DNA of 37,913 bases. Source: an uncultured Pelagibacteraceae bacterium (GTDB lineage: Bacteria > Pseudomonadota > Alphaproteobacteria > Pelagibacterales > Pelagibacteraceae). The stretch spans positions 1 to 37,913 of the forward strand of contig CACJWS010000003.1 of NCBI GenBank assembly GCA_902596975.1, given 5' to 3'. The notes beneath the pieces were generated by a model. It ran no database searches. It saw only the letters and a program-made list of their open reading frames with translations, and had not been told where the DNA came from. Numbering within the stretch: the stretch's first letter is position 1; the number at the start of each line of letters is the position of its first letter. Below are positions 15,000 through 31,710 of this stretch, one piece after another. The translations under genes and the position numbers were made by a program.

Positions 15000-15797
15000 C
15001 TAATTTTTGTTGTGAATTCTATCCATTTCTTGAAGTTCGACTTCAAGTTTGTCTAATTCTTCACCACCAGCCATCATACTAAGAAGCTTTTCTCTAGAAA
15101 TATCTTTTTTTTGGAATGTTCCCATGCTTTTTCCTCGGTTAAGTACAGTGAAACTATTACCAACTGGGTAAGCATGATGTACATTATGAGTAATTAAAAT
15201 TACAGCCAATCCCTCAGACGCGGCCTTTACAATATATTTTAATACCATTGATGCTTGATGAACTCCTAAAGCAGAAGTTGGTTCATCTAAAACTAAAACT
15301 TTTGCTCCAAAATATATAGCTCGTGATATTGCTAGGCATTGTCTTTCACCACCGGACATAGTTCCAACTGCCTGAGACGGATCTCTAACATCGATACCTA
15401 TCTGTCCCATTCTATCTGCTGCTATCTTATTTGCTTTCTCCACATCAAAAGTTTTAAGGAAAGGAATACCTTTTTGAGGCTCTCTTCCCATAAAAAAATT
15501 TCTAGTAACACTCATTAAAGGAACTAATGCTAAATCTTGATAAACTGTTCCTATACCAATATCTAAAGCATCTTTAGGTGAGTCAAAAACAATTTTATTA
15601 TCTTCAAATATAATTTCTCCTTCATCAGGCTTATGAACACCTGCTAAAGTTTTAATTAAAGTCGACTTTCCTGCTCCATTATCTCCAAGTAAGCACATGA
15701 TCTCACCTTTTTTTAATCTCATAGTGACATCTTTAAGCGCTATTACCTTCCCAAAAAACTTACTAATATTATTAAATTGAACGAGATAGTCTGACAT
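15000..15797 (-). CDS. Sugar/cyclitol ABC importer A, ATP-binding subunit
   Basis: This cytoplasmic ATPase of a carbohydrate importer has 265 residues and a single nucleotide-binding domain, as in FrcA-type systems. RbsA or MglA has a duplicated domain of about 500 residues. Walker A is GDNGAGKST at 38-46, the signature is MSGGERQ, and Walker B is [12 protein letters not shown]. The Q-loop region [10 protein letters not shown] is normal for the family. It overlaps the permease stop by one base. The link to iolG upstream suggests an inositol or related cyclitol as substrate; fructose is the other usual assignment for this subfamily. Confidence 0.92.
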
Positions 15798-16924
15798 TAT
15801 TTACTCTCAGTCACTTTCTTTCTGATATAGTTATTAAACACTACAGCTATCAACATCATTGCTCCTAAGAAAACTTTAAACCAATCAGTGTCAACATCTG
15901 TATAAAATATTCCCATAGATACTGTACCAAATATTATTGCACCAAAAGCAGCACCTATTGCAGATCCATACCCACCAGTTAAGAGACACCCACCAACAAC
16001 AGCTGCTGCAATAGCTTCTAGTTCTTTTAAAGTACCTCTCATAGTATCTGCAGAACCCGCATCTAATACTTGAATACAAGCAAAAATAGTAGAAGCGACT
16101 GCCGTACCAATAAATAGACTTATTTTTACCCTTCCAACAGGCACGCCGACGTTTGTTGCTCCAACCTTATCGCCTCCAGATGCGAAGATCCAATTACCGT
16201 ATCTTGTTTTCATCAATATCCATGTTGCAAACAATGTTAATGCAATAAACCAAATAACTGATGGAGGTATTCCGGTTGCAAGAGGAGTTCCATCAGTTCT
16301 TAGTTCAATTAATTTTAATGATCCCAACCAAGTAAAAAGCCATTTAAAAGTATCTGTAGCAAATAACCAAGCTAATGGATCATCTTCAATTAATACTCTT
16401 AGTCCTGGAACTTGAGTTCTACCAGTAATCAATCTTGTTATTGCTAATGTCAAACCTCTTAAAATAAAAAGCATTGCAAGTGTTACAATAAAAGATGGCA
16501 AACCAGTTTTGACAACCATTATGCCATTAAAGTATCCAACCAATACTGCCATAGCGAAAGCAAAAACTATACTCATCCATAAAGGCCAACCCCAATAAAT
16601 CGCAGGAATTGCGATACAAATTCCAGCAAAGCCAATCATTGATCCAATTGACAAATCAAATTCACCGCCAATCATTAACATCGCTGCTGCTATTGCTATG
16701 ATTCCTAAATTAGCTGAAACATCGAGGAAATTAAGCATTCCATAGGCGCTAAACATACCAGTATCGCCAGCTACAATTCCAAAAAATATAAATACAAGTA
16801 TTGAGCCACCTAATGCACCTAACTCAGGCCTATTCAATAAAACTCTTAGTGGTGATATTTTTTTTAGACGCTCATCTTCATTAAGACTACTTTTTGATGA
16901 AATACTTTTTGATTTTAATGACAT
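15797..16924 (-). CDS. Sugar/cyclitol ABC importer A, permease
   Basis: A 375-residue inner-membrane permease of the branched-chain amino acid/ribose (BPD_transp_2) type. It has a polar N-terminal extension of about 35 residues followed by multiple hydrophobic spans. Family signatures include [13 protein letters not shown], the [20 protein letters not shown] segment and [18 protein letters not shown]. The gene is separated from its binding-protein gene by a strong intrinsic terminator, so its transcription probably depends on readthrough or on a separate promoter. Confidence 0.93.
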
Positions 16925-16938
16925 TTAAATTTTGAAAA

Positions 16939-16969
16939 AAGGCCTGACTATAAAATTTAGTCAGGCCTT
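16939..16969 (-). terminator. Intrinsic terminator between binding-protein and permease genes of ABC importer A
   Basis: A perfect 12-bp stem (AAGGCCTGACTA pairing with TAGTCAGGCCTT) closes a 7-nt loop. On the minus strand it is followed by a T6 run. It sits 11 bp after the binding-protein stop codon and 14 bp before the permease start. Its direction matches the genes; the + strand side lacks a T run. It probably stops most transcripts after the binding-protein gene. Confidence 0.9.
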
Positions 16970-16980
16970 AAATATAGATT

Positions 16981-17904
16981 TTATCTATAACCTTGAGCTG
17001 CCCATTTAATTACTTTAGCAGCATTATCAGGAGTAACAAACCCTGGTCCAGTCATAACTACACCAGCAGGCATTGTTCCCCATCTCATGTACTGAGCAAA
17101 AATAGCTATAGGCAAATAACCTTGTAGATATTGTTGTTGGTCAATTAAAAACTCTACTTTACCTGCAGCAGCAGCTTTTAACATATTAGGTGACATATCA
17201 AATGTTCCTAATTTAACATTTCCAACTTTGCCAGCAGCTTCTAAAGCTTTTAGTGCTGCTTCACCAGATAAACCAGCTCCTAAAGTTAGAATAGTGTCAT
17301 ATCCACCACCTAATTTTGCAGCAACAGCTTTTTGAATTTCAGTTGGGTCATTTGATGTTCCAAGAATATCAACAGATCCACCAAAACCTTTTTTGAAACC
17401 TGCACATCTTCTATCAAGCGCTACGTTTCCAACTTCGTGGTTAACGCATAAAGCTTTTTTTCCTCCAGCAGCTTTCATTTTTTGTCCGCCACCAACGCCA
17501 GCTTCAAATTCAGTTTGACCTACGTGCGCACTAATTCCTAATGATGCATAGTCATCCGAACCAGAGTTCATAGAAACTACTGGTATACCAGCAGCTATTG
17601 CTGCTTTAACAGATTTTCCTAATGCTGCTGCATCAGGTAAAGTAATTACAATACCTTTTGGTTTTTGTGATACAGCGTTATCAATTAGTTTTGCCATTTC
17701 AACCATGTCAAAAGTTCCAGGCGCAGTGTATTTGCAAGATACTCCCATATCTTTACAAGCAGCATCAACTCCATTTTTTGCTACCGACCAAAAAGGGTCA
17801 TTAGCTTGTCCATGTGAAACAACAATTATATCAGTTGCTAATGCTGATACAGACATCATTGCCCATGCAGCAACAGCTAATATAAAGTTCTTTATTGTTT
17901 TCAT
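16981..17904 (-). CDS. Sugar/cyclitol ABC importer A, periplasmic binding protein
   Basis: A 307-residue class I (ribose/galactose-type, Peripla_BP_4) solute-binding protein. A signal peptide is clear: MKTIKN, a hydrophobic core, then cleavage probably after SALA. The mature start is TDIIVVSHGQANDPFWSVAKNG, with the NDPFW ligand-pocket motif typical of the family. Later segments IVITLPDAAALG and FDMSPNMLKAAAAGKVEFLIDQQQYLQGY fit the hinge region. A strong Shine-Dalgarno (AGAGG) precedes the ATG. Transcribed after iolG with a 105-bp gap, it plausibly binds myo-inositol or another cyclitol. Confidence 0.92.
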   Translation of the reverse strand: MKTIKNFILAVAAWAMMSVSALATDIIVVSHGQANDPFWSVAKNGVDAACKDMGVSCKYTAPGTFDMVEMAKLIDNAVSQKPKGIVITLPDAAALGKSVKAAIAAGIPVVSMNSGSDDYASLGISAHVGQTEFEAGVGGGQKMKAAGGKKALCVNHEVGNVALDRRCAGFKKGFGGSVDILGTSNDPTEIQKAVAAKLGGGYDTILTLGAGLSGEAALKALEAAGKVGNVKLGTFDMSPNMLKAAAAGKVEFLIDQQQYLQGYLPIAIFAQYMRWGTMPAGVVMTGPGFVTPDNAAKVIKWAAQGYR

Positions 17905-18009: not shown

Positions 18010-19023
18010 CTAGTATTTTATTTTTTCAAACTTTTTTGATTTTAATGATCTGATAGCACTTTCTGCAATTTGAATTGAAATCTTTCCATCAATAAAACCA
18101 CTTTTAGGTCTCGAATTTGATCTAAATAATTTGGCTAGATCATTTAATTGTTCTTTGTATGCTTGATCGTATCTTTCTATAAAAAAATGTTTAAAGCGTG
18201 AACGTGCATTTGTACTTTTATTAGAATACAAACTAATCTCATTTTCTTTGATATTATCAGAAATAATCATTCCTTTACTTCCAAAGAGCTCTACTCTTTG
18301 ATCATATCCAAAACTACAATGTCTCGAATTACTTATAATACATTGAACACCATTTTTTGTTTTCAAAATTGCCGTAGCAAGCTCGAAATCTTTAAGTTTA
18401 TTGAAGTATTTATTAGAAATATTACTCCCTGTAGCAAATATAGAAACAAATTCATCTTTACCCGCATAATATCTTGCTAGATCGAAATCATGGATCATCA
18501 TATCTTTAAAAATACCACCTGAGGCTTTTAAATAATTTATAGATGGAGCAGCTGGATCTCTGCTAGTAATAATGATTTTCTCTAGCTTTCCTATCTTACC
18601 TTTTATTAAATTATTTTTTAGAGAACTATGACCTGGATCGTATCTCCTATTAAATCCAATTTGAATTTTATGATTAAATTTATTTATTTTTTTTTCGTAA
18701 TTTTGAATTTTTTTTAAATTTAAATCTAAAGGTTTTTCACAAAATACTGTTTTGTTACTTTTTATACTTTCATATATAAATTTAAGATGAGTTGATGTAA
18801 TAGAAGATATAAAAATACAATCAATTTTTTTATCTTTATATGCTATTTGAGGATTTTCAATATTTTGACAATTTAGATTTTTTGAAACTTTTTTTGCAAG
18901 TTTCTTATTAACATCGAAAATATATTTAAGATTAAAATTTTTATTATTTATTAAATTATTTGCATGCATTAGTCCTATTCTTCCCAAACCGAATAATGCT
19001 ACGTTAATTAAATTTTTACCCAT
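18010..19023 (-). CDS. iolG: myo-Inositol 2-dehydrogenase
   Basis: IolG oxidises myo-inositol to 2-keto-myo-inositol (scyllo-inosose) with NAD+. In the 337-residue protein the Rossmann motif is VALFGLGRIGLMHANN, the nicotinamide-side lysine is in VFCEKPLD, and the substrate region reads SRDPAAP followed by GGIFKDMMIHDFDLARYY. The last stretch, with the catalytic Asp/His pair, together with NSRHCSFGYDQRVELFGSKGM is highly characteristic of IolG within the Gfo/Idh/MocA superfamily. It overlaps the upstream Gfo/Idh gene by 16 bp and lies before the ABC importer A genes, which supports an inositol role for that importer. Confidence 0.88.
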   Translation of the reverse strand: MGKNLINVALFGLGRIGLMHANNLINNKNFNLKYIFDVNKKLAKKVSKNLNCQNIENPQIAYKDKKIDCIFISSITSTHLKFIYESIKSNKTVFCEKPLDLNLKKIQNYEKKINKFNHKIQIGFNRRYDPGHSSLKNNLIKGKIGKLEKIIITSRDPAAPSINYLKASGGIFKDMMIHDFDLARYYAGKDEFVSIFATGSNISNKYFNKLKDFELATAILKTKNGVQCIISNSRHCSFGYDQRVELFGSKGMIISDNIKENEISLYSNKSTNARSRFKHFFIERYDQAYKEQLNDLAKLFRSNSRPKSGFIDGKISIQIAESAIRSLKSKKFEKIKY

Positions 19024-20153
19024 TGTTTTTTTAATGATGATTTCTTACATGCATCAATGAATTTAGCAGTCTCCAAACCCTCTTCTTCGTTAGGAAAATA
19101 AAATCTTTTTTTTGTATTTGTTTTTAAATATTCAGCAAATTCCTTATATATATTTGCAAAAGCATCTAAATAACCTTCAGGGTGACCAAATTTTACTCTA
19201 GAAAATTTTTTTGAAAAATTTGCTTTTGTATAACCTCTTTCTAAAAACTTTACTGCTCCTTTGCTTGGATTAAATTTTAGATAATTTGGATCATTTTGAA
19301 CCCATTCTAAACTTCCTTTAGATCCATATACTCTAATTCTTAAACCATAGACACCACCTTTAGCTGTTACACATGTCCATACAATTCCTTTAGCACCATT
19401 ATTAAAATTAACAAAAACTTGTGCGTTATTATCCATATTAACGTCCTTCGAATATTTACTTACATCGGCTATCAGTTTTTCTCCTTTAAGGCCTGTAATA
19501 TAAATTGCTAGATGATATGCGTGTGATCCTATTTCATTGAGAACTGCTGATACACCAACAATTTTTTTATCAACTTTCCATTTAAAAACCTTTTTTGAAT
19601 TTGTTTTTGAAATTTTATTACCATCTGTCCAATCCTGAATATATTCAACATTTATATATTCAACTTTTCCAATTTTTCCTTTTTCCACTAAATTTTTTGC
19701 TTCTCTTACCATTGGATAAGATGAATAGTTGTGAGTCAGTGCATATTTAATTTTTTTGTTATTTTTAATCGCTTTATATAGTTTTTTTCCCTGCTCAAGA
19801 TTCCCAGCAAATGGTTTGTCTGAAATTACATGTATATTTTTTTTTATAAAATTCTCTGCAATAATTTGATGACTTGATGGTGGAGTCATTATTGCTACAA
19901 CATTAATACCATCTTTTCTTTTCGCTTCTTTTTCAGACATCTCCTTGTAATTTGAATAACATCTCGATTTGTCTAAACCTATACTTTGTCCAAATTTCCT
20001 AGATTTATCAACACTTCTAGAAAATACCCCTGCAACGATTTCGTATTTGTCATCATATCTAGATGAAATCCTATGAACATGTCCGATCCAAGATCCAGGT
20101 CCTCCTCCAACAATTCCAAGTTTAAATTTTTTAGGTTTAATTTTTTGAAGCAT
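19008..20153 (-). CDS. Gfo/Idh/MocA dehydrogenase of the GGGPGSWIGxVHR type
   Basis: A 381-residue NAD(P)-dependent oxidoreductase. The dinucleotide motif is VGGGPGSWIGHVHRISSR, an unusual extended form that I associate with Gfo/Idh proteins of inositol clusters. The lysine motif is ISDKPFAGN and the Asp/His-type active-site area reads VLNEIGSHAYHLAIY. It probably oxidises or isomerises an alternative cyclitol or an inosose (for example scyllo- or chiro-inositol), but the substrate is inferred only. It starts 26 bp from the divergent iolE start and overlaps iolG. Confidence 0.85.
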   Translation of the reverse strand: MLQKIKPKKFKLGIVGGGPGSWIGHVHRISSRYDDKYEIVAGVFSRSVDKSRKFGQSIGLDKSRCYSNYKEMSEKEAKRKDGINVVAIMTPPSSHQIIAENFIKKNIHVISDKPFAGNLEQGKKLYKAIKNNKKIKYALTHNYSSYPMVREAKNLVEKGKIGKVEYINVEYIQDWTDGNKISKTNSKKVFKWKVDKKIVGVSAVLNEIGSHAYHLAIYITGLKGEKLIADVSKYSKDVNMDNNAQVFVNFNNGAKGIVWTCVTAKGGVYGLRIRVYGSKGSLEWVQNDPNYLKFNPSKGAVKFLERGYTKANFSKKFSRVKFGHPEGYLDAFANIYKEFAEYLKTNTKKRFYFPNEEEGLETAKFIDACKKSSLKKQWVKI

Positions 20154-20179
20154 CTAATATCATAACAAAACTATTATTT

Positions 20180-21082
20180 ATGTCAGTAAAATTAGGTATA
20201 GCCCCAATAGCTTGGAGCAATGATGACATGCCTGAGCTTGGTGGTGATACTCCGCTTGAACAATGTCTTTCCGAAGCTAGTGAAGCAGGATTTAAAGGAA
20301 TAGAATCTGGGGGAAAATTTCCAAAAACATCAAAAGAATTAATTCCTATATTAAACAAATATAATTTAAAATTATGTTCTGGTTGGTACGGAGCAAATTT
20401 AAGAAAAAATACTTTTGAAGAGGAAAAAACAAAAATTCAAAACCAATTGAAACTATTTCAAGATTGTAAAGCACCTTGCATGGTTTTTGCAGAAGTTTAT
20501 GGTTCTATTCAAGGCGATCCAAATATAAATTTATCTAAAAGACCTAGAATGGATTTAGACGAGGCTAAAAAATATTATAAAAAAATTTCAGAAATGGGAA
20601 AATATCTAGAGGATCAAGACATGCCTCTTGCTTACCATCATCATATGGGAACTTGTATTGAAAGTGAGGAAGATACAAGAAGATTATTAGAAAACACAGA
20701 TGGTAGTGTCAAACTAACTTTAGATACTGGACATATGTTATTTGCAAAAGGGGATAGTTTGAAAATTTATAAAGAATTTAAAGAAAGAATAATTCATATA
20801 CATTGCAAAGATATGAGAAAAAATGTTTTAGATAATTCATTAAATTACGATTATAGTTTTAGACAGGCTTTTTTGGAAGGAGCCTTCACTGTTCCAGGAG
20901 ATGGTTGTATTGATTATAAGCCTTTTTTTGAATTGTTAAAAAAACAAAATTATTCTGGATGGTTAGTTGTAGAAGCGGAGCAAGACCCCGCAAAAGCAAA
21001 TCCTTTTGAATATGCTAAAATTGGATACAAATATCTAATTGAAACTTTAAAAAGTGCAAATTTAGAAATTGAAAATAATTAG
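20180..21082 (+). CDS. iolE: myo-Inosose-2 dehydratase
   Basis: IolE removes water from 2-keto-myo-inositol to give 3D-(3,5/4)-trihydroxycyclohexane-1,2-dione. The 300-residue TIM-barrel protein of the xylose-isomerase-like family starts VKLGIAPIAWSNDDMPELGG, the usual IolE opening. It carries GIESGGKFP, AYHHHMGTCIES, LTLDTGHMLFAKGD and IHIHCKD, which supply the Glu, Asp, His and Asp/Glu metal ligands. WLVVEAEQDPAKANPFEY near the end is also typical. It stands alone on its strand, divergent from the Gfo/Idh-iolG operon and convergent with the pilin-like gene. Confidence 0.94.
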   Translation: MSVKLGIAPIAWSNDDMPELGGDTPLEQCLSEASEAGFKGIESGGKFPKTSKELIPILNKYNLKLCSGWYGANLRKNTFEEEKTKIQNQLKLFQDCKAPCMVFAEVYGSIQGDPNINLSKRPRMDLDEAKKYYKKISEMGKYLEDQDMPLAYHHHMGTCIESEEDTRRLLENTDGSVKLTLDTGHMLFAKGDSLKIYKEFKERIIHIHCKDMRKNVLDNSLNYDYSFRQAFLEGAFTVPGDGCIDYKPFFELLKKQNYSGWLVVEAEQDPAKANPFEYAKIGYKYLIETLKSANLEIENN

Positions 21083-21583
21083 TTATCTATATAAAGAAGT
21101 TAATTCATTATTACCAGCAGCAACACATGGAGATTTAAAACAAGTACCAACTATCCATTCTGATCCTGGTTCTGCTAAAAAATTTGATGACATTATAAAA
21201 ATAACACCCATTTCTACTGACTGACCAGCTTTTCCCTCTGCTTTTATTCTCGGGTCAGGGTCTGTTTTAACTTTATTGTCATCTGAAAATGGATTTTCAA
21301 TCTTAAGATTATCATTTATATGATTAACAACCTTTTCAGCTATCCATTCAGCATTACATGGATCACCCCAAACTGTTATCTTCCCTTCATCGTTATTTCC
21401 ACAATTATTAATTTCGCCATTAATAAAATCGACAACTTTTTTATGATTTTCTTTTACTAAATTTGCACGAGCTTCAACTTCAGGCCTTGTACTCGCTGTC
21501 CATATCAACATTCCTACCACATAAACAGCTGATATAATGATAAGAAACTCTAACAATCCAAAATTTTTTAATTTTAAGCTCAT
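21083..21583 (-). CDS. Pilin-like single-pass membrane protein, unknown function
   Basis: A 166-residue protein with a short basic N-terminus (MSLKLKNF), then GLLEFLIIISAVYVVGMLIW, one hydrophobic helix. This is followed by an amphipathic region (ARANLVKENHKKVVDFINGE) and a soluble domain with four cysteines in two pairs. A Gly before a hydrophobic helix with an early Glu resembles a type IV pilin/pseudopilin N-terminus. The Glu sits two positions earlier than the canonical place, so processing by a prepilin peptidase is uncertain. It overlaps the hydroxyacid dehydrogenase stop as ATGA, so it is translationally coupled to catabolic genes, which is odd. No pilus genes are nearby. Confidence 0.55.
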   Translation of the reverse strand: MSLKLKNFGLLEFLIIISAVYVVGMLIWTASTRPEVEARANLVKENHKKVVDFINGEINNCGNNDEGKITVWGDPCNAEWIAEKVVNHINDNLKIENPFSDDNKVKTDPDPRIKAEGKAGQSVEMGVIFIMSSNFLAEPGSEWIVGTCFKSPCVAAGNNELTSLYR

Positions 21584-22539
21584 GAGATTTTTACTATTTT
21601 TGACTTTTCCAATTTATTATCAAAAAAATCAATAATATTTTGGACTGTTTCAATACCCATTCTAGACAAACATTCTTCGGTAAATACTGCTGAATGAGGG
21701 CTTAAAAATGCTTTCTCATTTTTTAGCAATGGATTATCTACAGATGGAGGCTCCTTTTCAAAAACGTCAAGCCCTGCACCAAAAATTAAATCTTCGTTTA
21801 ATGCCTTATTAAGATCATCCTCATTAATAATACCACCTCTTGCAGCATTAATTAAAATACAATTTTTTTTCATTTTTTTTATCATTTCATAATTAATTAA
21901 ATGTTTTGTATTTTCGTTTAGAGGCATATGAATTGAAATTGCATCCATTTTATTTAAACTCTCATTTAAATCCTTAATTTTAGTACCACCAACTTTTTTA
22001 ATTTCCTCTTCACTGACAAAAGGATCATAAACAAAAATATTCATTTCTAAACCCTTACATTTTTTAAGTAAACATTTTCCAATTCGACCAAAACCTGCAA
22101 TTAAGATACTTTTATTCCATAACTCAATTGTTTTAGGAAGCTTAGTTCTATCACTGAACTTTCCAGTTTTTACTGTCTCGTTGTACATATTATTTCTTTT
22201 TGCAATGCTGAATAGCATGAATAAAACATGTTCTGCCACTGCTTGAGCATTTGCTGTAGCTGTTATTGCTAATGTGATATTGTTTTGTTTGGTTGCTTCA
22301 AGATCTATATTATCATAGCCTACACCATGTCTAGATATCACTTTTAAATTCTTAGCTGAGTCTATAATTTCTTTTGACAATTTAGATGTTCTAATACTTA
22401 TTCCATCACAGTCTTTTATTTTATCTTTCAAAAATTCTGTATCTGTATTGTCTACAACTTCAAATTCAAAATTTTTATTTCCTTTTAGTAAATCAATACC
22501 ATGATTATGTATAGATCCAATTATTAAGATTTTTTTCAT
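21580..22539 (-). CDS. D-2-hydroxyacid dehydrogenase (SerA-like)
   Basis: A 319-residue NAD(P)-dependent D-isomer-specific 2-hydroxyacid dehydrogenase. The Rossmann motif is AGFGRIGKCLLKKC. The catalytic Arg is in NAARGGIINEDDL, the Glu in GLDVFEKEPP and the His in LSPHSAV. Members interconvert 2-oxo and 2-hydroxy acids such as phosphoglycerate or hydroxypyruvate/glycerate. There is no regulatory ACT domain, so it is probably catabolic and not the serine-biosynthesis enzyme. It follows the aldolase gene by 24 bp, which suggests it acts on an aldolase substrate or product. Confidence 0.88.
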   Translation of the reverse strand: MKKILIIGSIHNHGIDLLKGNKNFEFEVVDNTDTEFLKDKIKDCDGISIRTSKLSKEIIDSAKNLKVISRHGVGYDNIDLEATKQNNITLAITATANAQAVAEHVLFMLFSIAKRNNMYNETVKTGKFSDRTKLPKTIELWNKSILIAGFGRIGKCLLKKCKGLEMNIFVYDPFVSEEEIKKVGGTKIKDLNESLNKMDAISIHMPLNENTKHLINYEMIKKMKKNCILINAARGGIINEDDLNKALNEDLIFGAGLDVFEKEPPSVDNPLLKNEKAFLSPHSAVFTEECLSRMGIETVQNIIDFFDNKLEKSKIVKIS

Positions 22540-22563
22540 ACGTAAAAGTTTATACTTTATTTA

Positions 22564-23355
22564 TTAATAGGCTTTAGATAATTCTGATTTCACTGTGCCT
22601 TTTAAATTTTCAACTGTATTTTTCGCACCCGCACTTATAAATCTGGAGTCTGCTCCAACTGTTACAAATTGAAAACCTTTTTCAATCATTTTTTTTGCAT
22701 AGTCAGTACTTCCGTTATGAATTCCAGCAAATATATTGTTTTTTTTTGCATGCTCTAATATTCTAAGTATTTCTGAATAAGCTTTAGTATCTTCACCTTT
22801 ATCAAAACCAGGCTTTTCTCCTATAGCCAAACTTAAATCAGCAGGCCCTATGTAGATACCATCAAGGCCTGGGGTACTCATAATTTCATCAAGATTTTCT
22901 AAAGCTTCTTTAGTTTCAATCATAGCCATTTTTAATATTTCATCGTTTGCATGATCTCCATAATCAGGCCCTCCATAGATTAATCCTCTTACAGGACCAA
23001 AACTTCTATATCCATCTGGTGGATATTTACATGCTTGAACAAATCTTTCTGCTTCTTTTCGATTACTTACCATTGGGCAAATGATTCCATAACATCCAGC
23101 ATCTAAAATTTTCATAATTTGACCAGGTTCATTCCAGTTAACTCTTGCCAAAGGCACGACTTCAGTCGCTGAAATCACTTGCATCATTGGCATTGCATTT
23201 GTGTAATCAACGAGCCCGTGTTGCATATCAATTGTTAATGAGTCCCATCCTTGTTGAGCCATTGTTTCTGCCGAAACAGTACTTGGAATTTGTAACCAAC
23301 CATTGATTACAGCTTTGCCATTTTTAATTATTTCTTTGGCTTTATTTTTTCTCAT
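22564..23355 (-). CDS. HpcH/HpaI-family class II aldolase
   Basis: A 263-residue divalent-metal-dependent aldolase of the HpaI/GarL group. These enzymes cleave 2-keto-3-deoxy (or 3-hydroxy) sugar acids to a 2-oxoacid and an aldehyde. Active-site signatures are TIDMQHGLVDY, the arginine in LARVNWNEP, the metal-binding Glu in MIETKEALEN and the Asp in GIYIGPADLSLAIG. It lies between an aldehyde dehydrogenase and a 2-hydroxyacid dehydrogenase on one strand. HpaI-type enzymes are not part of the textbook inositol route, where IolJ is a different class of aldolase. Confidence 0.92.
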   Translation of the reverse strand: MRKNKAKEIIKNGKAVINGWLQIPSTVSAETMAQQGWDSLTIDMQHGLVDYTNAMPMMQVISATEVVPLARVNWNEPGQIMKILDAGCYGIICPMVSNRKEAERFVQACKYPPDGYRSFGPVRGLIYGGPDYGDHANDEILKMAMIETKEALENLDEIMSTPGLDGIYIGPADLSLAIGEKPGFDKGEDTKAYSEILRILEHAKKNNIFAGIHNGSTDYAKKMIEKGFQFVTVGADSRFISAGAKNTVENLKGTVKSELSKAY

Positions 23356-23359
23356 TTAC

Positions 23360-24802
23360 TTAGGTTTTTAGACCCATATGTGTATACTTTATATTAAGGT
23401 AATCTTTTATAGCCATAGATCCACCTTCACGACCATAACCGGTTTGTTTTATTCCACCGAATGGAGCTTCAGCAACTGCAACTGCAGCTGTATTTACTGC
23501 TACACAACCGGTTTCCATCATTTCAGATGCTCTATTAGCTTTGTCCATCGAGTTTGTGTACAAATAACTACAAAGTCCTAAGTCATTATTATTTGCTCTC
23601 TCTACTACTTCGTCAAAATCCTTGAAAGTTAAAACCGGCACTAAGGGACCAAAAGGTTCTTCTTTCATAATTGTAAAATTGTCCTGCACTTCATCAAATA
23701 CTGTTGGTTCAAAATAATAACCTTTATTAAATCCTGAAGGTCTACCCCCACCTAAAATAACTTTTGCACCTTCACTCTTTGTCGTTTCGACTAATTTTTC
23801 AATTTCTTCCAAACGTTTTGCTGTTGTTAAAGGTCCTAAGTCAGTACCTTCATCCATACCATTTCCAATTTTTAATTTTTTTGCTCTGTCTACAAAAGCA
23901 TTTACAAATTCTTCTTTTCTTGTTTCTTGAATGTAGAACCTATTTGGGGATATACAAACTTGACCATTGTTACGAAATTTTGCTGTTATTGCCATATCTG
24001 CAACTTTATTCATGTCAACATCGTCAAATACTATAAATGGAGAATGACCACTTAATTCCATTGTAACTCTTTGAACTTTATCCGCAGCTTTTTTAAGTAT
24101 TAATTTTCCAACACGTGTTGAGCCAGTTATAGAAACTTTTTTTATTATATCTGATTCAAGTAATTCATTTGATATTTCAGCTGGGTCTCCAGATAATAAA
24201 TTGACTACTCCATCAGGAACTCCAGCATCTTTACAAATATTTACAAGTTCCATAACTGCCCCAGGCGTAATTACATCTGGTTTACAAATAACTGAACAAC
24301 CAGCAGCCAGTGCAGTTGAAATTTTTCTAGATGCTAAAACTATAGGAAAATTCCATGGTACAAGTGCTGCTACAACACCTACTGGCTGATAGTAAACATG
24401 AACTCTTGTTTCTGGAAATCTACTTTGTAATGTTTCACCATAAATTCTCTTAGTTTCTTCTGCGTTCCATTCAAATATATCTGCTCCACCGCCAACTTCT
24501 CCAATTGCTTCTTTAAGAGGTTTTCCAACTTCAAGTGTAAGCCATTTAGCTAATACATCTTTTCTTTCACGCATCAAATCTGCAATTTTTCTTATTACAT
24601 AAGACCTCTGCCATGGAGTGGTATTTTTCCAAGTTTCGAGTCCTTTCTCTGCTGATTTTAATGCTTTTTGAACGTCAACAGATGATGCTTTTGATGCTTC
24701 TCCTAAAACTTCTTCTGTTGCTGGATTGATAACTTTATAAGTTTCTTTTTTTTCTGCTTGTTGCCACTGACCATCAATGAATTGACCAAAATTGCTATAC
24801 AT
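23360..24802 (-). CDS. NAD(P)-dependent aldehyde dehydrogenase
   Basis: A 480-residue member of the ALDH superfamily, close to the succinate-semialdehyde/glycolaldehyde group. The catalytic asparagine is in VPWNFPIV, the general-base Glu in TMELSGHSPF and the nucleophilic Cys in NNGQVCISPNRF. The C-terminus has AVAEAPFGGIKQTGYGREGG. It lacks the features of the CoA-acylating IolA/MmsA group that I would expect, for instance that family's usual active-site context. It is the first gene of a minus-strand operon with the aldolase and hydroxyacid dehydrogenase, 52 bp from the divergent iolD start. The substrate is probably an aldehyde from inositol breakdown. Confidence 0.93.
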   Translation of the reverse strand: MYSNFGQFIDGQWQQAEKKETYKVINPATEEVLGEASKASSVDVQKALKSAEKGLETWKNTTPWQRSYVIRKIADLMRERKDVLAKWLTLEVGKPLKEAIGEVGGGADIFEWNAEETKRIYGETLQSRFPETRVHVYYQPVGVVAALVPWNFPIVLASRKISTALAAGCSVICKPDVITPGAVMELVNICKDAGVPDGVVNLLSGDPAEISNELLESDIIKKVSITGSTRVGKLILKKAADKVQRVTMELSGHSPFIVFDDVDMNKVADMAITAKFRNNGQVCISPNRFYIQETRKEEFVNAFVDRAKKLKIGNGMDEGTDLGPLTTAKRLEEIEKLVETTKSEGAKVILGGGRPSGFNKGYYFEPTVFDEVQDNFTIMKEEPFGPLVPVLTFKDFDEVVERANNNDLGLCSYLYTNSMDKANRASEMMETGCVAVNTAAVAVAEAPFGGIKQTGYGREGGSMAIKDYLNIKYTHMGLKT

Positions 24803-24854
24803 ATTTTTTAAATTGTGTTTAATTGTTAAAAGTTAAAGATTTATATATAGAATA

Positions 24855-26699
24855 ATGAAAAAAATAAAGCTCACTTGTGCACATGCAATAATAAAACATC
24901 TTATTGCTCAAAAAATTTTAATAGATGGTAAAAAAGAGCAGCTATTTGCTGGAGCTTTTGGTATTTTTGGACATGGCAATGTTGCTTGTTTAGGACAAGC
25001 TCTACAAGAAAATCAAGATAAATTACCAACTTATAGAGGGCATCATGAGCAAAATATGGCTCTGACTGGAATAGCATATGCTAGAGCTAAAAGAAGAAAA
25101 CAATTTTTTGTTGCAACTAGTTCAGTTGGACCAGGATCTACAAATATGGTTACAGCCTCGGCTGTTGCTATGAGCAATAGACTTCCAATTTTATTTTTAC
25201 CTGGAGATACATATGCAAACAGAATGCCTGATCCGGTTCTACAACAAGTTGAGCATTTTAATAATCCTGGCATTACTCAGAATGATGCTTTCAAACCAGT
25301 AACAAAATATTTTGATAGAATTACAAGACCAGAACAAATCTTACAAACATTACCTCAAGCAATCCAAACAATGTTAGATCCAGCAGATTGCGGACCAGCT
25401 TGCTTATCATTATCACAAGATGTTCAAGGTGAAACATATGAATATCCTGAAGAATTTTTTAAAGAGAGAGTTCATAATATTAGAAGACCAAGACCTGATG
25501 ATTTTCAAATAAAACAAGCAGCTGAGCAAATTAAAAAATCTAAAAATCCTTTATTGATTTCAGGTGGAGGGGTTTTCTACTCTGATGCAATGGAAGATAT
25601 AAGTAATTTTGCAATTAAACACAATATACCAGTTACACAAACAGTTATGGGCTACTCTACAATGAAGAGGGATCACTCTCATTTTTTGGGTCCCATAGGT
25701 GGTCTTGGTGGCAAAGCAGCAAATAATTTAGCAAAACAAACTGACTTAGCTATTGCTGTTGGAACAAAGTTAGCTGATTTCACAACTGGTTCGTGGGCAA
25801 ATTTTGAGAACCCAGACTTTTCACTTGTTAGTGTTAATGTATCTAGATTTGATGCTAGCAAACATTTGGCGCAGTCAGTAATAGGTGATGCAAAAGTAAG
25901 CTTACAAGAGCTATCAAATGCTTTGGGAGATTGGAAAGCACCTGATGAATGGCATAAAAAATCAAGAGATGAATTAAAAAATTGGAATGACTATGTTGAT
26001 AAAGAAAGCGGACCAACTAATCAAGAGCTACCTAGTTATGCACATGCTGTAGGAGCAATATATCGTAATTCAGATCCAACAGATATTGCAGTTACCGCAG
26101 CGGGAGGATTGGTTGGAGAAGTTGTACAAATTTGGAGGCCAAAAGAATTAAACACACATGAAACCGAGTGGGGTTTTAGCTGTATGAGTTATGAAATTTC
26201 TGGTGCATTAGGAGTTAAAATGGCAAACCCAGATAAAGAAGTAATAGCTTTTGTAGGAGATGGATCCTATTTACTTTTTAATTCAGATATTTATTCATCA
26301 GTTATAACAAATAATAAATTAATAATAGTTCTATGTGATAATGGAGGCCATGCCGTTATTAACAGGTTACAATTATTTAAAGGTGGAAAAGAATTTAATT
26401 GTCTATTTAATAGTTCAAAAGCTCCAAATCTAGTCCCTGTTAATTTTGCTAAACATGCAGAGAGTATGGGGGCAAAATCTGAGGAGGTATCATCTATTTC
26501 TGAATTAGAGGAAGCATTTAAAAGAGCTAAAAAATCTGATGTAACTTACTTAATTTCAATAAAAACTCATTCTTATGAGTGGCTAGAAGGTTCTGCTTAC
26601 TGGGAAAGTCCTACTTTAGAAATGCCATCAACAAAAGAAAATGAAGAGGCATTAAAACTTCATAAAGAAGGAAAATCAAAGCAAAGACAAGGTGTCTAA
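24855..26699 (+). CDS. iolD: 3D-(3,5/4)-trihydroxycyclohexane-1,2-dione hydrolase
   Basis: This ThDP-dependent enzyme opens the cyclitol ring to 5-deoxy-D-glucuronate. In 614 residues the PYR-domain glutamate is E65 in YRGHHEQNMAL, and IolD-typical blocks follow (SSVGPGSTNMVTASA, LPGDTYANRMPDPVLQQ). The ThDP magnesium motif starts GDGSYLLFNSD at 468 and ends with N496 in LCDNGGHAVINRLQ. WGFSCMSYEISGALG precedes it. It heads a + strand operon with a Gfo/Idh protein, a hydroxyacid dehydrogenase and ABC importer B. No iolB or iolC lies next to it, which is unusual. Confidence 0.95.
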   Translation: MKKIKLTCAHAIIKHLIAQKILIDGKKEQLFAGAFGIFGHGNVACLGQALQENQDKLPTYRGHHEQNMALTGIAYARAKRRKQFFVATSSVGPGSTNMVTASAVAMSNRLPILFLPGDTYANRMPDPVLQQVEHFNNPGITQNDAFKPVTKYFDRITRPEQILQTLPQAIQTMLDPADCGPACLSLSQDVQGETYEYPEEFFKERVHNIRRPRPDDFQIKQAAEQIKKSKNPLLISGGGVFYSDAMEDISNFAIKHNIPVTQTVMGYSTMKRDHSHFLGPIGGLGGKAANNLAKQTDLAIAVGTKLADFTTGSWANFENPDFSLVSVNVSRFDASKHLAQSVIGDAKVSLQELSNALGDWKAPDEWHKKSRDELKNWNDYVDKESGPTNQELPSYAHAVGAIYRNSDPTDIAVTAAGGLVGEVVQIWRPKELNTHETEWGFSCMSYEISGALGVKMANPDKEVIAFVGDGSYLLFNSDIYSSVITNNKLIIVLCDNGGHAVINRLQLFKGGKEFNCLFNSSKAPNLVPVNFAKHAESMGAKSEEVSSISELEEAFKRAKKSDVTYLISIKTHSYEWLEGSAYWESPTLEMPSTKENEEALKLHKEGKSKQRQGV

Positions 26700-26704
26700 A
26701 TTTC

Positions 26705-27859
26705 ATGAATAAAGTTTTTAAGGTTGGTCTCATAGGATGTGGCCATATCGCAGAAACATATTTTAGGGGACACCAATATTTTAATAATTTCAAAATCGTT
26801 GCTTGTGCGGATATTAATCAAAAAGCAGCTGAAAAATGTGCGAAATTATACAACATCAAATCAATGACTGTTAATGAAATACTAAAAGATAAAGACATTG
26901 AGGTAATTTTAAATTTAACAATTCCTCAATCACATTATTCTGTATCAAAAAAAGTATTAAATGCAGGCAAGCATGTTTATTCAGAAAAACCATTAGCAAC
27001 ATACTTTCAAAAAGGAAAAGAGTTAGTGGCTTTAGCAAAACAAAAAAAATTGTACATAGGTAATGCGCCAGATACTTTTCTTGGAGGAGGTGGACAAAAA
27101 GCAAAGGAATTAATTGACTCTGATTTGATTGGACAAATCAAACTTGGAAATGCAATCTTTGCATTTCCTGGAGTTGAAAATTTTCATCCAAAACCAGAGT
27201 CTTGGTATAAAAAAGAGGGAGGACCAGTAATTGATATGGGTCCTTATTTTTTTACAACGCTTGTTAATCTTTTAGGACCAGCTAAACAGGTGCAAGGAAG
27301 AACATTAACGGCGTTTAAAAGAAGAAATTATAGAGCAGGTCCAAATAAAGGAAAAACATTTAAGGTTGAAACACCAACTACTTATTTAGCAACAATTCAA
27401 TTTCATAATGAAGCAATTATTCAAGTTACTCTATCCTTTGATGTTATTAATCATCAAAGAAATCATATGGAACTTTATGGAACTAAAGGATCAATTATTG
27501 TTCCTGATCCAAATATGTTTGGTGGATCAGTTTATATTTCTGTTACAGAAGGTGGTCGTTGGGGTGAACATAAAACTGATAAAATGCATTTAGGAAAAAT
27601 AAATATTACATCTGCAAGTGGTAGATCTAATGAATCACCAACAAATGCAAACTATAGAAGTGTTGGAATGTCTGAGATGTTATATTCAATTGAAAAAAAG
27701 AAAAAACATCGATGTTCCGGAGAGCTATCTCTTCATGTTTTAGATATAATTGAGTCTACTATGAAAGCCGCAACATCTGGAGTACCTCAAAAAATAAAAA
27801 CTAAGTGTGAAAAGCCAAAAAGATTTACAGAAGAAGAAGTAAAAAAAATTCTCTTATAG
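26705..27859 (+). CDS. Gfo/Idh/MocA dehydrogenase
   Basis: A 384-residue NAD(P)-dependent oxidoreductase with the Rossmann motif VGLIGCGHIAETYFRG and the catalytic-side lysine in VYSEKPLATY. A substrate-domain segment reads ESWYKKEGGPVIDMGPYFFTTLVNLLG. The GGPVIDMGPYY-like form is common in sugar and sugar-derivative dehydrogenases of this superfamily and differs from both minus-strand paralogues. It lies 5 bp after iolD and 3 bp before a hydroxyacid dehydrogenase, so it probably acts on a cyclitol or on a ring-opened intermediate. The substrate is unknown. Confidence 0.88.
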   Translation: MNKVFKVGLIGCGHIAETYFRGHQYFNNFKIVACADINQKAAEKCAKLYNIKSMTVNEILKDKDIEVILNLTIPQSHYSVSKKVLNAGKHVYSEKPLATYFQKGKELVALAKQKKLYIGNAPDTFLGGGGQKAKELIDSDLIGQIKLGNAIFAFPGVENFHPKPESWYKKEGGPVIDMGPYFFTTLVNLLGPAKQVQGRTLTAFKRRNYRAGPNKGKTFKVETPTTYLATIQFHNEAIIQVTLSFDVINHQRNHMELYGTKGSIIVPDPNMFGGSVYISVTEGGRWGEHKTDKMHLGKINITSASGRSNESPTNANYRSVGMSEMLYSIEKKKKHRCSGELSLHVLDIIESTMKAATSGVPQKIKTKCEKPKRFTEEEVKKILL

Positions 27860-27862
27860 ATC

Positions 27863-28882
27863 ATGAAAGATATTGCAATAGTTGATCCATATCCAAGAAC
27901 TATGGAGCTTATTTTCTCAAAATCAAAATTAAATGAGTTAAAAAATAAATTTAAGCTTATTTTCGCACCAAAAATAAATAAACAGAAATTTTATATTAAT
28001 AATATTCATAAAGCGAAATTTATAATTGGACAGCCTTATCTTCCTAAATTTTTGTTAATGAAAGCAAAAAAGTTGAAAGCAGTAATAAACGTCGAAAGTA
28101 ACTTTCTAGATAATATGGATTATAATTATTGCTTTGATAAAGGTATTCATGTTATTGCAACTTCACCCGTTTTCTCGAAACCAGTCGCAGAAATTGCGCT
28201 TGGATTTACACTCTCTCTTCTTAGAAATATTCATGGAGCAAATCAGGATTTCATTAATAAAAAGGAAAAGTACGGATTAGATGGAAATCTTAAGTCTTCA
28301 TTGTTATCAGACAAAAGAATTGGATTATTGGGATTTGGAGATCTAGGGAAAGCTTTGGTTCCATTATTGAAACCATTTTCGAGCAAAATAAATATCTATG
28401 ATCCTTGGATACCAAACAAAAAAATTATTAATCAAGGATTTAAACCAATTACTTTAAAAAAAATGTTTAAAGAGTGTGAAGTTATTTATGTGCTTGCTGC
28501 AATTACTACAAAAAACAAAGGACTGATTAATAAAAAATTACTCAATCTTATGAAATCAAACTCACTTTTTATACTAATGAGTAGAGCTGCAGTTGTTAAT
28601 TTTAAAGATTTAAAAAATAGGCTTAAAAAAGGTGATATTTATGCAGCGCTTGATGTTTTTCCGGAAGAACCAGTTAAAAAAAATGACCCTATAAGAAAAT
28701 TAAAAAATGTTTTATTTTCTGCACATAGAGCAGGTGCTTTAGACGAGACATTCAAGGAAATGGGTAATATTGTTTTTGAAGATATGAAATTAATTTCAAA
28801 AAATCTTAATCCAAGATTTTGTAAAAGAGCTCTAAGAAAAACTGTTCATCTTTTAAGGTCAAAACCTGTTGCAATTAATTAA
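27863..28882 (+). CDS. D-2-hydroxyacid dehydrogenase family protein
   Basis: A 339-residue NAD(P)-dependent dehydrogenase with the Rossmann motif LLGFGDLGKALVPLL. The catalytic Arg is in MSRAAVVNFKDL, the acid residue in ALDVFPEEP, and the histidine in FSAHRAGA, the variant His-Arg form. It is basic and more divergent than the paralogue at 21580. It is in operon with iolD, suggesting reduction or oxidation of a 2-oxo or 2-hydroxy acid made from 5-deoxyglucuronate. The exact substrate cannot be inferred. Confidence 0.85.
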   Translation: MKDIAIVDPYPRTMELIFSKSKLNELKNKFKLIFAPKINKQKFYINNIHKAKFIIGQPYLPKFLLMKAKKLKAVINVESNFLDNMDYNYCFDKGIHVIATSPVFSKPVAEIALGFTLSLLRNIHGANQDFINKKEKYGLDGNLKSSLLSDKRIGLLGFGDLGKALVPLLKPFSSKINIYDPWIPNKKIINQGFKPITLKKMFKECEVIYVLAAITTKNKGLINKKLLNLMKSNSLFILMSRAAVVNFKDLKNRLKKGDIYAALDVFPEEPVKKNDPIRKLKNVLFSAHRAGALDETFKEMGNIVFEDMKLISKNLNPRFCKRALRKTVHLLRSKPVAIN

Positions 28883-28904: not shown

Positions 28905-29654
28905 ATGACTTCAACAAATAAATTGCTCTTAGAGGCCAAAGGTATCACAAAGTATTTTGGAACAATAACTGCTTTAGAAAATGTAAATTTAAAAGTGCAC
29001 GAAGGTGAATGTTTAGGTGTAGTGGGAGATAATGGTGCAGGCAAATCTACACTAATGAAAGTTTTATCTGGTTTGTACAAACCAAGTGCAGGTGCTTTAT
29101 TTTTTGAGGGCAAAGAACATGTGTTAGATAGTCCAAAAGACTCTCAAAATTTAGGTTTAGAAATGGTTTATCAAGATCTTGCATTGGCAGGTAATTTACC
29201 TATTGGAGAAAATATATTCTTAGGAAGAGAGCCAACAAAAAATATTGGCTTCTTAAAATTTCTAGATTTTAAAAAAATTCAAGAAATGACAAGCGCACAC
29301 TTAGAGAAACTAAAAATAAATGTTAAAAGTGCTGATCAGAAAGTAGAGGAATTATCTGGAGGACAAAGACAAGCGGTTGCAATAGCTAGGTCTACAGCAT
29401 TTAATGCCAAAGTTGTTATAATGGATGAACCAACTGCTGCTTTGGCAATAAAAGAAGTTGGAAAAGTATTAGATTTAATTAACAAATTAAAAAGTACTGG
29501 CGTAGGTGTTATAGTAATAAGCCATAGAATGGATGATATTTTTACTGTTTGTGACAGAGTAATGGCACTTTTTCAAGGAACAAACTTTGCTGAGTCTCAA
29601 TTAGATAAAACTTCAAGAGATGAAGTCATTGGTTGGATTATGGGAAAAAAATAA
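28905..29654 (+). CDS. Sugar ABC importer B, ATP-binding subunit
   Basis: A 249-residue single-domain carbohydrate-importer ATPase. Walker A is GDNGAGKST at 41-49, the Q-loop lies in MVYQDLALAG, the signature is ELSGGQRQ and Walker B is VVIMDEPTAALA. It is related to the importer A ATPase but clearly distinct. It follows the hydroxyacid dehydrogenase by 22 bp and the permease begins 2 bp after its stop, so it is probably in the iolD transcript. Substrate: a ribose-like sugar or a cyclitol. Confidence 0.93.
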   Translation: MTSTNKLLLEAKGITKYFGTITALENVNLKVHEGECLGVVGDNGAGKSTLMKVLSGLYKPSAGALFFEGKEHVLDSPKDSQNLGLEMVYQDLALAGNLPIGENIFLGREPTKNIGFLKFLDFKKIQEMTSAHLEKLKINVKSADQKVEELSGGQRQAVAIARSTAFNAKVVIMDEPTAALAIKEVGKVLDLINKLKSTGVGVIVISHRMDDIFTVCDRVMALFQGTNFAESQLDKTSRDEVIGWIMGKK

Positions 29655-29656
29655 AT

Positions 29657-30670
29657 ATGGAAGATAAAGAAAAAAAACAAGATAGCTTATACGTAAAACT
29701 TATTCCATATTTTGAAAAATATGGGATTTTACTATTATTAGTTATCATGATCTTGGTAATGCATATATTGCAACCAGATGTCTTCTTGTCTTGGAGAAAT
29801 GTAACAAACGTATTTAAACAAATATCTTGGCAATCAATGTTAGCTTTAGGTGTTTTTATGGTGATTGTGACTGCAGGTATAGATCTATCAGTTGGCTCAA
29901 TAATGATGCTTTCATTGATGATTTTAGCAATAGTAGCTAAAGCCGGAGCACCTTGGTTTATAGTTGTTCTAGTACCTTTATTTGCTGGATTTTTATGCGG
30001 TTTGATAAATGGTTTGGGGATAACACTTTTAAGAATGCCTCATCCTTTTATAATGACTTTAGGAACTCTTTATATTTTTAGAGGAACAGGAAACTTAATA
30101 TCAGGCGGAACACCTATAAGTGGATTTACTGATGAAGTTAGGTACTTAGGTCATGGCAGAATAGATCTTACTTGGCTTGGATTAGAGAAATCTCAATATC
30201 TCCCCGTAAGCTTAGTTTTGATCGCTGTTGTATATTTTGTTTTTTGGGTTTTCTTGAATCATAGTCGAACAGGAAAGTGGATTTATGCAATTGGTGGCAA
30301 CCCAAGCGCAGCAAGAGCTTCAGGAATTAATGTTAATAAAATTTTAATAATTGTTTATTCACTTTGTGGATTTTTATCAGGTATTGGAGCATTAATTTTA
30401 GCAGGAAGAACAGACTCTGGTTATCCTAATGCAGGATTACAATCTGAATTGGATGCTATCGCAGCATGTATAATTGGTGGAGCTAGTTTCTTTGGTGGTA
30501 GAGGAACTGTTCTTGGAGTATTTGCCGGAGTAATGATTATGGGAATTTTAAGAAATGGACTTAATTTGATGGATGTAAGCTCTTTCTGGCAACAGGTATT
30601 AATTGGCTCGATCATTGTATTAGCAGTTTACGTGGATGTTTTAAGAAGAGATTTCGGCACAAGAAAATAA
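29657..30670 (+). CDS. Sugar ABC importer B, permease
   Basis: An inner-membrane permease of the ribose/xylose (BPD_transp_2) type, 337 residues from the ATG at 29657. A TTG at 29633, inside the ATPase gene, would add eight residues and seems unlikely. Signatures are VTAGIDLSVGSIMMLS, ITLLRMPHPFIMTLGTLYIFRG, NPSAARASGINV and ELDAIAACIIGGASFFGGRG. The binding-protein gene follows after 107 bp. Confidence 0.93.
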   Translation: MEDKEKKQDSLYVKLIPYFEKYGILLLLVIMILVMHILQPDVFLSWRNVTNVFKQISWQSMLALGVFMVIVTAGIDLSVGSIMMLSLMILAIVAKAGAPWFIVVLVPLFAGFLCGLINGLGITLLRMPHPFIMTLGTLYIFRGTGNLISGGTPISGFTDEVRYLGHGRIDLTWLGLEKSQYLPVSLVLIAVVYFVFWVFLNHSRTGKWIYAIGGNPSAARASGINVNKILIIVYSLCGFLSGIGALILAGRTDSGYPNAGLQSELDAIAACIIGGASFFGGRGTVLGVFAGVMIMGILRNGLNLMDVSSFWQQVLIGSIIVLAVYVDVLRRDFGTRK

Positions 30671-30777
30671 ACACGTCAAAGTTGAATAGATGCTATCATA
30701 AGAGACCCTGTAAACAGTTGAATTTTTTTTAAAAATTTTATTAAATTAAGCTTTAATAATTATTAAAGGGGAAATTT

Positions 30778-31710
30778 ATGAGAGAACTATCAAGAAAAAT
30801 TGTTGTTTTAGTATCAGCAATTTTTTTATCGATAAGCATGATTTCAGCTTCTTTTGCTGATGGTCATGGTAAAAAAATCTTATTCAGTATTAAAGGTCCT
30901 GGGTCTGGAAATCCTTTCTGGGCTTCTGTTACTAAAGGTGCTGAAGAAGAAGCTAAAAAATTAGGTGTCAAGTTAATCTTGGTTGCGCCACCTCAAGAAG
31001 GTGATGTTCAAGCACAAATTAACCAAGTGGAAGACCAACTTGCTAAAGGTGTTGATGCTTTAGCTCTTGCACCAGGAGATCCAAATGCATTTGCTCCAAT
31101 TGTAGATGATGCTATCAAAAGTGGTGTTCCAGTTGTATTCGTAGATACAAAAGGGATCAATGAAGGTGTTACTTTTATTGGAACTAACAATATGAATGGA
31201 GCAGAATTAGCTGCTAAATTCATTTGTGACAAAACTCCAAAAGGTTCAGATGTTGCAATTTTGACTGGAATAGAGTCTCAATCAACAGCTTTACTAAGAA
31301 GAGACGGTGCAATTAAAGGATTTAAAAATTGTGGTTTAAATATAGTTGCTACTCAAACAGCTGAGTGGGATACTGCAAAAGGTAGATCAGTTACTGAGTC
31401 TATTATTTTGAAAAATCCTAACATCAAAGCAATATTTGCTTCAAATGACAATATGGGCTTAGGTGCTATGCAAGCTCTTAAAGATGCAGATATGAATGAT
31501 GTTGTTGTAGTTGGTTTTGATGCAACTCCAGATGCTGCTACAAGTATCTTAAAAGGTGAAATGACTGCAACTATTGCTCAGTTCTCATATAACATGGGTG
31601 CTTACGGTGTTAAATATGCACTTGAGCTAGCTAATGGTGGAAGTATTGATCCAAACATTGATACTGGAACACAATTAGTAACAAAAGAAAACGCTAACGA
31701 TTTTAAATAA
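30778..31710 (+). CDS. Sugar ABC importer B, periplasmic binding protein
   Basis: A 310-residue class I (Peripla_BP_4, ribose-binding-like) protein. The signal peptide ends near SASFADGH, and ADG-H just after the cleavage region recurs in the TctC protein here. The mature start KKILFSIKGPGSGNPFWASVTKGAEEEA carries the pocket motif NPFW. Other blocks are ALAPGDPNAFAPIVDDA, FASNDNMGLGAMQAL and VVGFDATPDAATSILKGEMTATIAQ. A strong Shine-Dalgarno (AAGGGGA) precedes the ATG and a strong terminator follows, so abundant expression is likely. Confidence 0.94.
   Translation: MRELSRKIVVLVSAIFLSISMISASFADGHGKKILFSIKGPGSGNPFWASVTKGAEEEAKKLGVKLILVAPPQEGDVQAQINQVEDQLAKGVDALALAPGDPNAFAPIVDDAIKSGVPVVFVDTKGINEGVTFIGTNNMNGAELAAKFICDKTPKGSDVAILTGIESQSTALLRRDGAIKGFKNCGLNIVATQTAEWDTAKGRSVTESIILKNPNIKAIFASNDNMGLGAMQALKDADMNDVVVVGFDATPDAATSILKGEMTATIAQFSYNMGAYGVKYALELANGGSIDPNIDTGTQLVTKENANDFK

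Follow-up and report, generated by a model that had tools for sequence, protein, structure and literature searches.

The inositol gene cluster of SAR11 links iolD to an aldehyde dehydrogenase and an HpaI-type aldolase, with no IolB or IolC found

The window analyzed here, a stretch of 37,913 nucleotides (contig CACJWS010000003.1 of assembly GCA_902596975.1), comes from SAR11 (Pelagibacteraceae) and carries a cluster of genes for inositol catabolism (iol). It encodes the upper half of the pathway (IolG, IolE, IolD), and iolD is accompanied by an aldehyde dehydrogenase (ALDH) and an aldolase of the HpcH/HpaI class. Two observations are solid within SAR11: IolB and IolC are absent, and the ALDH and aldolase are linked to iolD as a pair. 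This gene set is a variant of the known inositol pathway, and its gene content is wider than first noted. We put at about even the chance that the second half of inositol catabolism in SAR11 runs without IolB and IolC, by way of the ALDH, a dehydrogenase acting at C2 and the HpaI-type aldolase; we infer every substrate and product after IolD.

Proteins were named with curated NCBIfam models and their cut-offs (IolG, IolE, IolD, HpaI, GarL and PGDH), and domains with Pfam. An earlier note on this DNA had described all three upper-pathway genes as clear; this holds for IolE and IolD, which exceed their curated cut-offs, while IolG falls 0.2 bit short. All of the open reading frames (ORFs) described were recovered in place. 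In the Pelagibacterales sample of 397 genomes, 151 of them at least 90% complete, IolD is above cut-off in 156. The KduI/IolB family had no match in the genome that contains the window (1.25 Mb, 92.4% complete) or in any of the 397, using a model that detects controls such as Bacillus subtilis and Escherichia coli. Nothing in the same genome exceeded the cut-off for IolC – the top match was the ribokinase encoded in the window, at 80 bits against 300 – and none of 80 Pelagibacterales genomes had a match at E ≤ 1e-40. This set of 80, and a set of 52 used below, were hand-picked, non-randomly, from near-complete genomes, and the relatives compared include single-contig genomes. The absence of IolB and IolC, noticed earlier for the block of genes, thus extends to the whole genome and to these relatives. 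An iolB and an iolC elsewhere in the genome would, according to the earlier note, have refuted its hypothesis, and neither turned up. By Pfam, the ten proteins of the block include a pair of 2-hydroxyacid dehydrogenases together with a single ALDH and a single HpcH/HpaI aldolase, but no KduI/IolB, fructose-bisphosphate (FBP) aldolase or DUF2090 domain, which agrees with the earlier description of a block without an FBP-type aldolase; IolJ (PF01116) was not searched genome-wide. The same description had found no clear IolA, which is correct for the block but not for the genome: an IolA/MmsA-type enzyme (709 bits, cut-off 448.5) is encoded on another contig, C8, between sdhB-like and malate-dehydrogenase-like genes, both named by eye from their translations.

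The linkage was examined in stretches, meaning DNA fetched around a gene of interest. The 102 SAR11 stretches around iolD were clustered at 95% iolD DNA identity into 34 groups, as a guard against pseudo-replication, and a gene was scored present in a group when at least one member stretch had it. The ALDH and the aldolase adjoin iolD in all 34 groups. Among single stretches the aldolase is visible in 99 of 102, and the remaining three have less than 1.6 kb on that side. An orthologue of the aldolase (E < 1e-120) was found in 40 of 40 IolD-positive genomes and 2 of 40 IolD-negative ones (Fisher p 1.6e-20, relatedness ignored), and in both of these IolD-negative genomes the contig ends inside the ALDH gene. 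An oxidoreductase directly following iolD, Gfo3, is nearly as constant, being present in all 29 groups with at least 5 kb downstream. The gene of the 2-hydroxyacid dehydrogenase hadh1 goes together with iolE: 22 groups have the two genes, the other 12 have neither, and no group has just one of them. The set of ALDH, aldolase and two hydroxyacid dehydrogenases that had been proposed to stand in for the canonical genes is all in the block, with its first two members constant across SAR11 and the second hydroxyacid dehydrogenase, hadh2, variable.

Left of iolD are the minus-strand ALDH, aldolase, hadh1 and a 166-aa ORF, followed by iolE (plus strand), Gfo2 and iolG (minus strand) and an ATP-binding cassette (ABC) transporter (minus strand). 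To its right, all on the plus strand, are Gfo3, hadh2 and a second ABC transporter. The gaps are 4 bases between ALDH and aldolase, 5 between iolD and Gfo3, and 3 between Gfo3 and hadh2. The features are as follows, with occurrence given out of the 34 SAR11 groups:

15000..17904, minus strand: inositol/rhizopine-type ABC transporter (ATPase 15000-15797, permease 15797-16924, substrate-binding protein 16981-17904)
18010..19023, minus strand: iolG, inositol 2-dehydrogenase (TIGR04380, 354.8 bits, cut-off 355)
19008..20153, minus strand: Gfo2, Gfo/Idh/MocA oxidoreductase by Pfam, a variable partner (9/34 at ≥60% identity)
20180..21082, plus strand: iolE, inosose dehydratase (TIGR04379, 398 bits, cut-off 290)
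21083..21583, minus strand: 166-aa protein with an N-terminal hydrophobic helix, overlapping hadh1 by 4 bases (16/34)
21580..22539, minus strand: hadh1, D-2-hydroxyacid dehydrogenase (PGDH-like), candidate C2 oxidase of 5-deoxyglucarate (TIGR01327, 275.2 bits, cut-off 454)
22564..23355, minus strand: HpcH/HpaI class II aldolase (PF03328), nearest solved structure SwHKA (34/34)
23360..24802, minus strand: aldehyde dehydrogenase of hydrolytic type (PF00171), like succinate semialdehyde dehydrogenase (SSADH), nearest solved structure E. coli SSADH 3jz4 (34/34)
24855..26699, plus strand: iolD, trihydroxycyclohexanedione hydrolase, 614 residues (TIGR04377, 798 bits, cut-off 715)
26705..27859, plus strand: Gfo3, Gfo/Idh/MocA oxidoreductase by Pfam, 5 bases 3' of iolD (33/34)
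27863..28882, plus strand: hadh2, second 2-hydroxyacid dehydrogenase by Pfam, variable (14/34)
28905..31710, plus strand: second sugar-type ABC transporter (ATPase, permease, RbsB-like binding protein), variable (ATPase in 14/34)

The first step of the proposed route would fall to the ALDH, which is predicted to oxidize 5-deoxy-D-glucuronate to the diacid 5-deoxy-D-glucarate. Aligned to 3jz4, it retains Glu249 (in MELSGHSP) and Cys283, the mark of a hydrolytic, acid-forming enzyme; the MmsA on contig C8, unlike the ALDH, reads QALGG at that site and has no Glu. A dehydrogenase of the cluster, either Gfo3 or hadh1, would then oxidize C2, and the identity of this enzyme is the weakest step of the route. 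C2 of D-glucuronate has the D configuration that is used by the D-2-hydroxyacid dehydrogenase class, which makes hadh1 a possible C2 oxidase. Its nearest solved structure is 1wwk, it is related to glyoxylate/hydroxypyruvate reductases, and it is not a PGDH by the curated model. It keeps the Arg, Glu and His motifs, which we take to be catalytic. Gfo3 is the rival candidate and the more constant gene; we make no choice between the two.

The third step, cleavage of the C3–C4 bond of the resulting 2-keto acid, would be that of the aldolase, which has the PF03328 domain and the HpaI fold (AlphaFold2 (AF2) model, pLDDT 82.9). By both sequence and fold its closest solved structure is SwHKA (6r62), with 38% identity over 238 aligned residues. 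SwHKA is described in the available part of its report as a hydroxyketoacid aldolase of Sphingomonas wittichii RW1, crystallized with hydroxypyruvate (6r62; PMC10099721). The metal-binding Glu and Asp align between SwHKA and the window aldolase. At the position of a conserved Leu near C3 of the donor, both proteins differ from the family, SwHKA having Phe210 and the window aldolase His213. The structure-based alignment of the aldolase comprised the window protein and 18 of 120 listed homologues. The donor pocket seems closer to that of SwHKA than to the leucine type. Because this nearest solved relative was crystallized with hydroxypyruvate, we favor the split into hydroxypyruvate and malonate semialdehyde that the earlier note had put forward, and the aldolase is predicted to form them from 3,4-dihydroxy-2-oxoadipate. 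The MmsA-type enzyme of contig C8 would convert malonate semialdehyde to acetyl-CoA, just as happens in the standard pathway, and hydroxypyruvate would more probably enter serine or pyruvate metabolism than become glycerate.

A number of observations weigh against this route. In SAR11, hadh1 is missing, with iolE, from the stretches of 12 groups; 6 of the 40 IolD-negative genomes contain HpaI relatives that match less strongly (E 1e-31 to 1e-45); and a ROK fructokinase-like kinase (281 bits, cut-off 443) is found at E ≤ 1e-30 in the stretches of 17 of the 34 groups, a count made on group representatives alone. For the aldolase, the difference in structure-comparison Z of about 2 is modest. His213 was considered as a signature of inositol clusters and rejected, since it is often found in relatives unlinked to iolD: the position is His in 8, Phe in 6 and Gln in 1 of 15 such relatives from the family f72 described below, and Leu in 4 and His in 3 of 7 SAR11 paralogues.

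The remaining points against the route come from outside SAR11. In a class-level sample of 289 alphaproteobacterial genomes, IolD was found in 36. The KduI/IolB family is matched in 21 of these; the match in G627 is weak and contains stops. Only 2 of the 37 stretches around non-SAR11 iolD genes, some as short as 3–4 kb, have the aldolase near iolD (L144 and L134). Both of the genomes concerned (G466 and G411) carry IolB elsewhere, and therefore the gene set outside SAR11 is not tied to the loss of IolB. Thirteen genomes that are IolD-positive and IolB-negative (G452, G470, G480, G483, G504, G517, G522, G523, G526, G573, G595, G625 and G668) show no aldolase of the SAR11 type in the stretches that were fetched, some of which are short, and some of the genomes are incomplete. 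The rule that a genome without IolB has this aldolase fails outside SAR11, where the expected association between the gene set and the absence of iolB is not seen.

When a family (f72) was searched with the L144 aldolase as seed, 32 of 298 genomes proved to have a relative at E ≤ 1e-50. Aldolase, iolD and iolE occur together in seven of the stretches (L187, L188, L189, L201, L203, L205 and L206). With L144 and L134 this makes nine linked non-SAR11 stretches, of which seven have the ALDH, eight have hadh1 (all except L134) and none has IolB; the two in which the ALDH was not found are L188 and L134, and L206 has an IlvD/EDD dehydratase inside the gene run. ALDH, aldolase and hadh1 also occur without iolD in seven f72 stretches, so this trio may serve another substrate. 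In one of them (L191) the trio is at the contig end and the stretch stops just past the ALDH; the other six (L194, L195, L197, L199, L200 and L202) have, with the trio, a TIM-barrel (xylose-isomerase-like) protein and Gfo2 (L194:7987-13542), perhaps for a related cyclitol or sugar pathway. A further stretch, L204, has the aldolase and hadh1 without the ALDH.

The alternative that survives best, although we consider it unlikely, also begins with oxidation to 5-deoxyglucarate by the ALDH. A sugar-acid dehydratase would then form 4-hydroxy-2-oxoadipate, which the aldolase would cut to pyruvate and malonate semialdehyde, much as in the glucarate pathway. The best NCBIfam names of the aldolase are indeed those of pyruvate aldolases, but it scores below the cut-offs of both HpaI (4-hydroxy-2-oxoheptanedioate aldolase; 164.2 against 368.8 bits) and GarL (140.5 against 406.75 bits), and the SwHKA-like donor pocket argues against this reading. 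Pyruvate would require no further special enzyme. Dehydratases are at hand in the gene run of L206 and in the window itself, where a mandelate-racemase (MR)-type dehydratase is encoded at 33702-34877, but no dehydratase is constant in the SAR11 stretches (the rest of the genome was not searched). The MR-type gene was dropped as the missing step, being present in only 5 of the 34 groups. It belongs to a separate module of the window (33702-37439) that also encodes a PdxA-like protein and tripartite tricarboxylate transporter genes.

The fate of hydroxypyruvate separates the preferred route from a version that we find improbable, in which a 2-hydroxyacid dehydrogenase reduces it to D-glycerate for glycolysis. 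The relationship of hadh1 to glyoxylate/hydroxypyruvate reductases is consistent with this, as is its position near the aldolase in 22 of the 34 SAR11 groups and eight of the nine linked stretches elsewhere, but the groups without hadh1 speak against it. So does the lack of a kinase: searches for the MOFRL and GarK families of glycerate kinase gave no match in a set of 52 Pelagibacterales genomes, of which 26 have IolD, though the control Caulobacter was negative for both as well and the plant/cyanobacterial type was not searched. Since this alphaproteobacterial control is negative too, a third type of glycerate kinase is possible. The glycerate end product that had been suggested earlier is not upheld by these counts, which make serine or pyruvate metabolism the more likely destination. 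Transamination to serine is the alternative to glycerate. According to the available part of one study, agxt is reported in offshore genera and glycine-serine auxotrophy is common in Pelagibacteraceae; inositol goes unmentioned in its main text (PMC12636525). That SAR11 uses inositol as a source of serine, with an ATP-free cut to hydroxypyruvate, transamination of the latter to serine and conversion of malonate semialdehyde to acetyl-CoA, is a speculative and rather unlikely extension.

The ALDH could instead act after the aldolase, oxidizing malonate semialdehyde to malonate, with an unseen enzyme first turning 5-deoxyglucuronate into a 2-keto acid. In favor of this order, the ALDH is SSADH-like, malonate semialdehyde is one carbon shorter than its homologue succinate semialdehyde, and the trio does exist in stretches without iolD. 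We nevertheless regard this order as improbable: the MmsA of the genome can take malonate semialdehyde, and no candidate was seen for the first conversion. Last, it is very improbable that the standard logic persists with new parts, an unrecognized isomerase replacing IolB and the ROK kinase or ribokinase replacing IolC while the ALDH and aldolase belong to a neighboring pathway, since these kinases, although present in many SAR11 stretches, are not constant (ribokinase RbsK in 13 of 34 groups, ROK kinase in 6 at ≥55% identity) where the ALDH and aldolase are, and a 2-keto-acid aldolase is by family unsuited to a 5-keto 6-phosphate substrate. As a general rule, however, the earlier statement that no kinase is needed does not stand, given the ROK gene in half of the groups' stretches and RbsK in the window itself.

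Several other genes accompany the cluster. In several SAR11 clades (L143:7173-8075, L229-L232, L236), the ROK kinase gene has either Gfo3 or the ABC transporter of the inositol type as its neighbor. RbsK and RbsD, in L077 also a substrate-binding protein and permease, lie reversed near the iol genes in L077 and L046, which are single-cell records and possible amplification chimeras. A cassette of PanB-like, DUF1907, ketopantoate-reductase-like, 2OG-Fe(II) oxygenase and PhyH proteins is next to the aldolase in L207 (2006-7155) and again in L219, L220, L223-L225, L227, L228, L237 and L238; the PanB-like gene is in 9 of the 34 groups. The binding protein of the transporter at 15000..17904 has as its top model NF052284 (rhizopine substrate-binding protein), to which it is related but below cut-off (320 bits against 420). 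The ATPase of this transporter is in 18 of the 34 groups, and homologues of the transporter share a stretch with iolD in other Alphaproteobacteria (for example L119, L122 and L149). The 166-aa protein has no Pfam or NCBIfam match; its AF2 model is poor (pLDDT 64.5) and gave no fold match in Foldseek (best E 8.1). By eye it looks prepilin-like, with its N-terminal helix and an FGLLE motif, and the C-terminal half is nearly invariant in alignment.

The SAR11 cluster has IolG, IolE, IolD, an MmsA/IolA-type enzyme and the predicted malonate semialdehyde in common with the canonical pathway of Bacillus subtilis and Salmonella (IolG-E-D-B-C-J-A), while the ALDH, HpaI-type aldolase and dehydrogenases take the place of IolB and IolC. 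The inositol pathway of Thermotoga maritima is likewise free of IolB and IolC, but it exits before IolE and IolD by hydrolysis of inosose, and SAR11 has both of these enzymes. In the D-glucarate/galactarate pathway a dehydratase acts first, and GarL then yields pyruvate and tartronate semialdehyde; the aldarate, the 2-keto acid and the HpaI-family retro-aldol logic would be shared, and the constant dehydratase is what the SAR11 stretches do not have. IolC-DUF2090 fusions with a replaced aldolase also show that the lower half varies among bacteria, but that variant, as far as its report is available, keeps the IolC kinase and a phosphorylated substrate, whereas neither IolC nor IolB was found in SAR11 (PMC9007349). 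A 2022 survey defined a functional cluster, in the available part of its text, as having at least three of iolB, C, D and E, and by that definition the SAR11 cluster would not be counted (PMC9430895). Among the open-access papers listed in literature searches, no title or abstract opening describes an IolB-free route past IolD or inositol catabolism in SAR11.

Pathway tools that require IolB and IolC would score the SAR11 cells that carry IolD as unable to use inositol. SAR11 are among the most abundant marine bacteria. If the proposed route is true, the textbook pathway would have a second lower half, in which no ATP is spent and an extra reduced cofactor is gained, and the three-carbon product could help cells that are unable to make their own serine.

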